Part shown: positions 23,003 through 24,430 of the stretch, piece after piece
Numbering within the stretch: position 1 is the stretch's first letter
Layout: the number at the start of each line of letters is the position of its first letter
Assembly: GCA_031263985.1 (NCBI GenBank)
Contig: JAISER010000042.1
Span: forward strand, 1-32,392
Reading direction: 5' to 3'
Origin: Clostridiales bacterium
GTDB lineage: Bacteria > Bacillota > Clostridia > Lachnospirales > JAISER01
DNA: 32,392 nt
Made by a program: the position numbers and the translations under genes
The notes under the pieces: generated by a model
The model's database searches: none
Told to the model about the DNA's origin: nothing
The model's input: only the letters and a program-made list of their open reading frames with translations

Positions 23003-24430
23003 TTGGACTGCGAATTTTATATGGAAAAGGCTCTCGAACAAGCCGATATTGCGCTGGCGCTGGACGAGGTTCCGATAGGATGCGTAATTGTGATGGGCGG
23101 CGAGATAGTCGGCGCGGGCTATAACTGCCGTAACATGCGAAAAAACGCTTTGTGCCACGCGGAAATGATAGCGCTGAACGAAGCCTGTGAGCGTTTCGGT
23201 GACTGGCGTTTGGAAGACGCGGTCTTATTTGTTACGGTGGAGCCATGTCCTATGTGCGCGGGGGCTATTTTGCAGGCGCGCGTGAAGACGGTCGTATTCG
23301 GGGCGCGCAACCCAAAGGCTGGTTGCGCCGGTTCAGCGCTGAACATTTTGCAAGCGCCCGGTTTCAACCATAGAGTCGAAATAATAGAAGGCGTTTTGAA
23401 GGATCGCTGCGCCGCGCTGATGAAGGATTATTTTTCAGGCATTCGGCGCAAAATAAAAGAAAAAAAATTAGGGGAAATGAATGTGATAAAACAAATTTAT
23501 CTGGCTGGAGGATGCTTTTGGGGAATTGAGAAGTATTTGTCACTGATACCCGGCGTTACGAAAACCGAGGTCGGATACGCTAACGGCAAGAGCGGCATAC
23601 CTTCTTATGAGAAGGTATGCCGCGGAGATACAGGCTTCGCGGAGGCTGTCCGCGTTGAATATGACGACTCAAGACTGAGTCTGTCTGAGCTTTTGGCGCT
23701 CTATTACGACGTCGTCGATCCCACGTCCATAAACAGGCAGGGCAACGATAAAGGCGAGCAATATCGCACGGGCGTTTATTATGAAGATGACGCGGACACG
23801 GATATAATATCCGGTTCTCTGACTTTGCTTGGCGAAAGCTTGCGAAAACCTGTCGCGATCGAAATGAAGAAACTTGAAAATTTTTATCCTGCGGAAGAAT
23901 ATCATCAGAAGTATTTGGATAAAAACCCCGGCGGATACTGTCATATAGGCGCGAGTTCTTTCGAAGCCGCGCGCAATTACGCGGGAGGCTATAAAAGCTC
24001 TCAGGAAGCGAGAGGTAAATTGACGGATTTGCAGCTCGCGGTCACACGGCGCGGCGCGACTGAACCGCCTTTCGACAACGAATACTGGAACTTCTTTGAG
24101 CCAGGCGTTTATGTGGACATCGCGGATGGCGCGCCATTATTCATGTCTTCGAATAAATTCGATTCAGGATGCGGATGGCCCAGCTTTTCAAAACCGATTG
24201 ACAAAAAATTTATAAAGACGCTTCCGGACGCGTCTTTAGGTATGAGGCGCACGGAAGTAAAAAGCGGCGGAGGCTCGCATTTGGGTCATGTGTTTGATGA
24301 TGGGCCGGAGTCGCTTGGAGGTCTGCGGTATTGTATAAACAGCGCCGCTCTTCGATTTGTGCCTAAGAGTAAAATGGAAGAGGAAGGTTACGGAGGCTTG
24401 CTGCCGCTTATAACTGAAAATGAAAAGTGA
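23003..24430 (+). CDS. TadA-MsrA-MsrB in one reading frame (fusion or joined genes)
   Basis: The frame encodes 475 residues. Residues 1 to about 155 are tRNA adenosine deaminase TadA, which makes inosine at the wobble base of tRNA-Arg(ACG): CHAEMIAL with His52, Ala53, Glu54 and PCPMCAGAI with Cys82 and Cys85 as zinc ligands. From about 159 it is methionine sulfoxide reductase A ([11 protein letters not shown], Cys171). From about 340 it is MsrB ([24 protein letters not shown], and catalytic Cys444 in RYCINSAAL). MsrA-MsrB fusions are common; TadA-MsrAB is not known to me. The junction is GAA AAA AAA TTA GGG GAA ATG. With one A fewer it would read AAT TAG, ending TadA, with AGGGGAA as ribosome site for ATG 23478. 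The TTG start at 23003 fits the family's D-x-E-F-Y-M start; ATG 23021 is an alternative. Confidence 0.85.

Follow-up and report, generated by a model that had tools for sequence, protein, structure and literature searches.

An open frame joining tadA to msrAB across an eight-adenine run in a clostridial genome

A single open frame encodes TadA, MsrA and MsrB

Positions 23003-24430 of the DNA analyzed here (32,392 nucleotides of a Clostridiales bacterium, hereafter the window) are taken up by a single open frame of 475 amino acids that begins with TTG, ends with TGA, and encodes a complete TadA followed by a complete MsrA-MsrB (Table 1). A preliminary description of the locus, made from the sequence alone, had claimed that one frame holds all three enzymes whole, and profile searches bear this out, as each part scores above its curated cut-off and carries the motifs of its family. 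The TadA part reaches 157.6 bits against NCBIfam PRK10860 (cut-off 150) over residues 3-156, with the HAE motif found as CHAEM and the PCxxC motif as PCPMC. The MsrA part reaches 191.6 bits against TIGR00401 (cut-off 108.1) and holds Cys171 within GCFWG, and the MsrB part reaches 180.5 bits against TIGR00357 (cut-off 113.05), its RYCxN motif occurring as RYCINSA. Profile and motifs together identify the first part as TadA, for which A-to-I activity on tRNA-Arg(ACG) is predicted. Homology also backs the TTG start, where the N-terminus aligns with the MNYEFYMELA of TadA from a relative's locus (L015). The profile for PilB-type MsrAB (PRK14018), which includes an N-terminal thioredoxin-like domain, was matched only over positions 190-519, with 393.6 bits versus a cut-off of 522, and the frame therefore does not count as PilB-type.

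Table 1. Features at and around the joined frame (window coordinates).
Feature	Position	Strand	Remarks
Divergent DivIVA-like gene	22491..22967	-	PF05103, 29.8 bits
tadA (tRNA adenosine-34 deaminase)	23003..23464	+	Frame residues 1-154; TTG start; HAE and PCPMC zinc/catalytic motifs
A8 run	23460..23467	+	Shared frame hinges on the run; seven A would give TAG at 23469-23471
AGGGG, Shine-Dalgarno-like	23470..23474	+	Overlaps the would-be TAG; duplex with 16S tail upstream of GTG 23483
ATG, residue 159	23477..23479	+	2 nt after AGGGG; badly spaced start
GTG, residue 161	23483..23485	+	8 nt after AGGGG; aligned with the commonest stand-alone MsrAB start
MsrA domain	23492..23944	+	PF01625, residues 164-314, 194.7 bits; GCFWG catalytic motif
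MsrB domain	24020..24364	+	PF01641, residues 340-454, 144.7 bits; GCGWPSF and RYCINSA motifs
infC (IF3)	24867..25373	+	ATT start after GGAGGTG; in-frame TAA at 25080-25082; sole copy in genome

Both tadA and msrAB are present as single copies in the same genome, and a second copy of tadA, msrAB or infC that might relieve constraint was not found there. In the predicted structure of the fusion (mean pLDDT 83.9), confident TadA and MsrA folds are joined by a helix (residues 133-159) and a strand (residues 162-169), such that the C-terminal helix of TadA reaches residue 159 and the MsrA fold begins at residue 162. The arrangement of the domains relative to each other is undefined (pTM 0.52). The model suggests that the fusion could fold, and it says nothing on whether the fusion exists.

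Three complete domains with their motifs in an open frame, the lack of second copies of either gene, and a model with confident folds are all points in favor of a fixed TadA-MsrA-MsrB protein. Three readings of the frame had been put forward in the preliminary description: such a genuine fusion, a fusion that is phase-variable or made by slippage, and an indel joining two genes of an operon. The evidence below fits the last of these best and gives less support to the other two.

The join hinges on a run of eight adenines

TadA and MsrAB share a frame only by virtue of the A8 run. When the frame is recomputed for other run lengths, seven A yield a protein of 155 amino acids, six or nine A yield 174-175, ten A yield 156, and only the eight A of the assembly yield 475. 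With seven A, TadA ends in KIKEKN followed by TAG, in agreement with the earlier claim that removing one A brings an immediate stop. The linker of the fused frame comprises nothing more than the A-rich tail and the codons of the Shine-Dalgarno (SD)-like sequence.

The would-be stop is followed by signals expected of a separate gene. AGGGGAA had been proposed as the ribosome site of msrAB, serving an ATG placed at 23478. The SD-like AGGGG stands up to scrutiny, but the assignment of its start does not: the ATG lies at 23477 and GTG 23483 is the better start because the ATG follows AGGGG by only 2 nt. The SD energy upstream of GTG 23483 is -6.4 kcal/mol, compared with a median of -7.2 for the gene starts of this genome, and a value of -6.4 is attained by 4.2% of 2,346 internal ATG or GTG codons of the same genome. 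Among the 68 loci with stand-alone MsrAB, SD-supported starts are most common at the position of GTG 23483 (16 loci) and next most common at that of ATG 23477 (8 loci), when positions are matched through the Cys of CFWG, which is residue 171 here (aligned position 158 plus an offset of 3 gives residue 161). GTG 23483 is therefore most likely the native start of msrAB. For a point picked at random, the chance of a stop no more than two codons away is about 8%, and it seems unlikely that the stop, the SD-like sequence and the homologous start would all coincide by chance, for which a rough product of the chances is below 1%.

TadA-MsrAB in other genomes

The full-length TadA-MsrAB architecture was found in this genome alone when sets of 56, 392, 391 and 399 genomes were searched (about 1,000 in total, as the sets overlap), the nearest of which belong to other families of the same order. 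The searches of 391 and 399 genomes used a strict threshold (E <= 1e-128) at which weakly similar fusions could be missed, and the matches of the 392-genome search run down from the best score, so that a weakly similar fusion would not be missed there. Likewise, none of 1,246 matching plasmid records covers 80% of the fusion, viral contigs hold no fusion and only one distant MsrB, and a literature search for a link between TadA and MsrA returned nothing relevant. The same architecture in independent genomes, as expected of an established TadA-MsrAB family, was thus not encountered in these collections.

The preliminary description had also envisaged that relatives might carry tadA and msrAB as neighbors separated by a stop. 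No such adjacency occurs among the 80 GTDB loci kept or the other loci compared, tadA is absent from all of the approximately 100 msrA or msrAB loci of relatives that were read directly, and the two genes sit at separate sites in the 56 genomes whose listing was complete. The stop itself is a different matter, as tadA ends with its own stop in 25 of 25 relatives examined. In 24 of these 25, TadA ends at positions 148-166 on the numbering used here, with a median of about 152; the C-termini were compared directly, since the tails of the relatives' TadA proteins are misplaced in the composite alignment.

Within the range of the sequences compared, the adjacency of tadA and msrAB therefore appears to be itself a novelty of this lineage. 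The nearest MsrAB proteins (loci L031 and L124, clostridial, 72% identical) are stand-alone, with their own SD and GTG. The nearest tadA genes (65-66% identical, for example in L015 and L111) have other neighbors. A divergent DivIVA-like gene, recognized by eye, also precedes tadA in L015 (99-686, minus strand), and because the window has the same divergent neighbor, the site of tadA looks native.

Base accuracy around the locus

Whether an eighth A is to be trusted depends in part on the quality of the assembly. We compared 319 kb of this assembly (the window and 20 contig stretches) by tblastn with 2.0 Mb of a relative (G254), and no shift of frame was encountered across the 43,253 codons that aligned. 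These codons held 110 A/T runs of at least seven bases (84 of seven, 21 of eight and 5 of nine), and runs of eight or more are common inside long intact frames of this genome. Wholesale assembly noise was rejected as a general cause, given that there is no frameshift and that a clear internal nonsense codon occurs nowhere but in infC. Other apparent stops in the survey were discounted, as they fall at the ends of high-scoring segment pairs, in the N-terminal stretch of a match of 34% identity, or in short antisense-like matches. The absence of any other homopolymer frameshift is a further point for a fixed fusion, and it implies that an error exactly at the A8 run would need bad luck or a weak spot in the consensus.

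The single exception lies close by. Among the conserved genes of the survey, only infC, 1.6 kb downstream of the fusion, has a clear nonsense codon, an in-frame TAA. This TAA sits in the linker between the N- and C-terminal domains of IF3, the frame goes on to a TAG at 25371, and G254 has Glu at this position (segment KFKFDKAKKEKETRKKQK). Recoding of TAA was considered and rejected, as TAA is the commonest terminator in this genome (39 of 91 conserved gene ends). The TAA in infC may stem from a base error or from a lesion of the strain, or IF3 may be a split protein. Because the fusion and this TAA occur within 1.6 kb of each other, the local consensus is suspect, though not proven wrong, and we regard local base accuracy as doubtful.

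Farther downstream, the dihydroorotase frame (window 25874-27632) opens 61 codons before its family match and hence overlaps the end of rplT; its true start is probably near 26358.

Neighboring genes probably joined by one extra A

Taken together, these observations indicate that the frame is probably a tight tadA-msrAB gene pair whose stop has been bridged by one extra A, either through a recent slip or through a base error. We favor this reading because the length of TadA with seven A (155 amino acids) fits the TadA ends of relatives, because a well-spaced SD and GTG 23483 survive inside the frame, because the fusion was seen in no other genome searched, and because the sole infC nearby carries a nonsense TAA. 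A survey of frame transitions explained singletons mostly by errors of sequencing, indels of recent origin or pairs of adjacent genes (PMC3711429).

Under this proposal, tadA and msrAB would be co-directional neighbors, normally transcribed together as a closely spaced pair, and would yield two proteins from one message. The ancestral layout would have been a TadA of about 155 amino acids, a stop overlapping AGGGG, and MsrAB translated from GTG 23483. A change from A7 to A8 would then bridge the stop with a single added A and merge the frames, the added base either having arisen by recent replication slippage in the strain that was sampled or being an error of the consensus. If the A8 run is real, ribosomes would be expected to make a 53-kDa TadA-MsrAB, free MsrAB could still arise from the intact start at GTG 23483, and slippage of the polymerase on the run may also yield some TadA of 155 amino acids alone. 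Both enzymes would keep their usual separate jobs, and the proposal implies no cooperation of tRNA editing with the repair of methionine sulfoxide. Because B. subtilis can do without TadA (PMC10454642), the essentiality of TadA is not to be assumed here.

A fixed TadA-MsrA-MsrB protein of this lineage, in which the C-terminal helix of TadA passes through a short linker into MsrAB and which is either neutral or serves to couple the amounts of the enzymes, is in our judgment unlikely. In addition to the points in its favor given above, both MsrA and TadA take fusion partners elsewhere (isochorismatase-MsrA in L019, TlpA-like-MsrAB in L129 and TadA-Cdd1 in L024), the first and last of these within the same order. 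However, the architecture is confined to one genome, the join retains a near-canonical start site for MsrAB and hangs on one base, the linker has the makeup described above, and the low pTM gives no defined arrangement between the domains. Should the fusion prove real and fixed, it would represent an unreported partner for both TadA and MsrAB, and a test case for the function of such fusions.

We consider it improbable that the gene is switched by slippage, whether the A8 length varies by replication slippage (phase variation) or polymerase or ribosome slippage sets the ratio of fused to separate products. The run lies exactly at the join, either seven or ten A would give TadA alone, and an A AAA AAA heptamer is in phase within it. 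Slippage on a run of nine A is established for dnaX of Thermus thermophilus, and productive slippage on eight A has been suggested for some bacterial IS elements (PMC1088944). Nevertheless, no relative compared has the A run or the gene pair, the tract is seen in this genome only, A/T runs of eight bases within open frames are ordinary here, RNA structure that would stimulate frameshifting was not found (z = -0.70), and both states would yield MsrAB. To our knowledge, neither tadA nor msrAB is a kind of gene that is usually phase-varied. Phase variation thus seems unlikely, with no sign of it in this genome and the relatives compared. Similarly improbable is a fixed trifunctional TadA-MsrA-MsrB of one clostridial-type family in which slippage on A8 sets the ratio of fused to separate proteins.

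Returning to the bridged gene pair, the locus serves as a worked example: where a fusion hangs on one homopolymer base, has an intact ribosome site downstream, and lies near a nonsense codon in an essential neighbor, it should be accepted as biology only with sequencing reads in hand.

Comparison with known systems

The TadA part resembles established TadA proteins (PRK10860; PDB 7cph, 2b3j and 1z3a) in having a complete domain with HAE and PCxxC, and shares 55-67% identity with TadA proteins from its order, but it lacks a stop after the C-terminal helix and continues into MsrA. MsrA-MsrB fusions are well documented, as are the PilB-type variants that add a thioredoxin domain (PMC2713860, PMC8000184). 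Over residues 163-470, the frame has MsrA followed by MsrB, as in the MsrAB proteins of Streptococcus pneumoniae (3e0m, PMC2713860) and Helicobacter pylori (7e43, PMC8000184), whereas an in-frame TadA stands ahead of them in place of an own start or signal peptide.

PilB and related TlpA-like-MsrA-MsrB proteins (PRK14018; L129) likewise carry an extra domain ahead of MsrAB in one chain. Their N-terminal domain, however, is a thioredoxin that is secreted and supplies Msr with electrons, whereas TadA is a protein of the cytosol and plays no part in redox chemistry. The example in L129 (2081-3628, minus strand) is a secreted TlpA-like thioredoxin-MsrA-MsrB of 515 amino acids, a PilB-type architecture in a genome of a clostridial order. 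The TadA-Cdd1 frame of L024 shares with the window a TadA that has an extra C-terminal domain, but the partner there is a small helix-hairpin-helix-type domain rather than MsrAB. This frame (1255-1974, minus strand) encodes 239 amino acids with Cdd1 (PF11731) at the C-terminus, an unusual architecture for TadA. In L019 (1504-2541, minus strand), an isochorismatase/nicotinamidase-like domain is in frame with MsrA in a protein of 345 amino acids.
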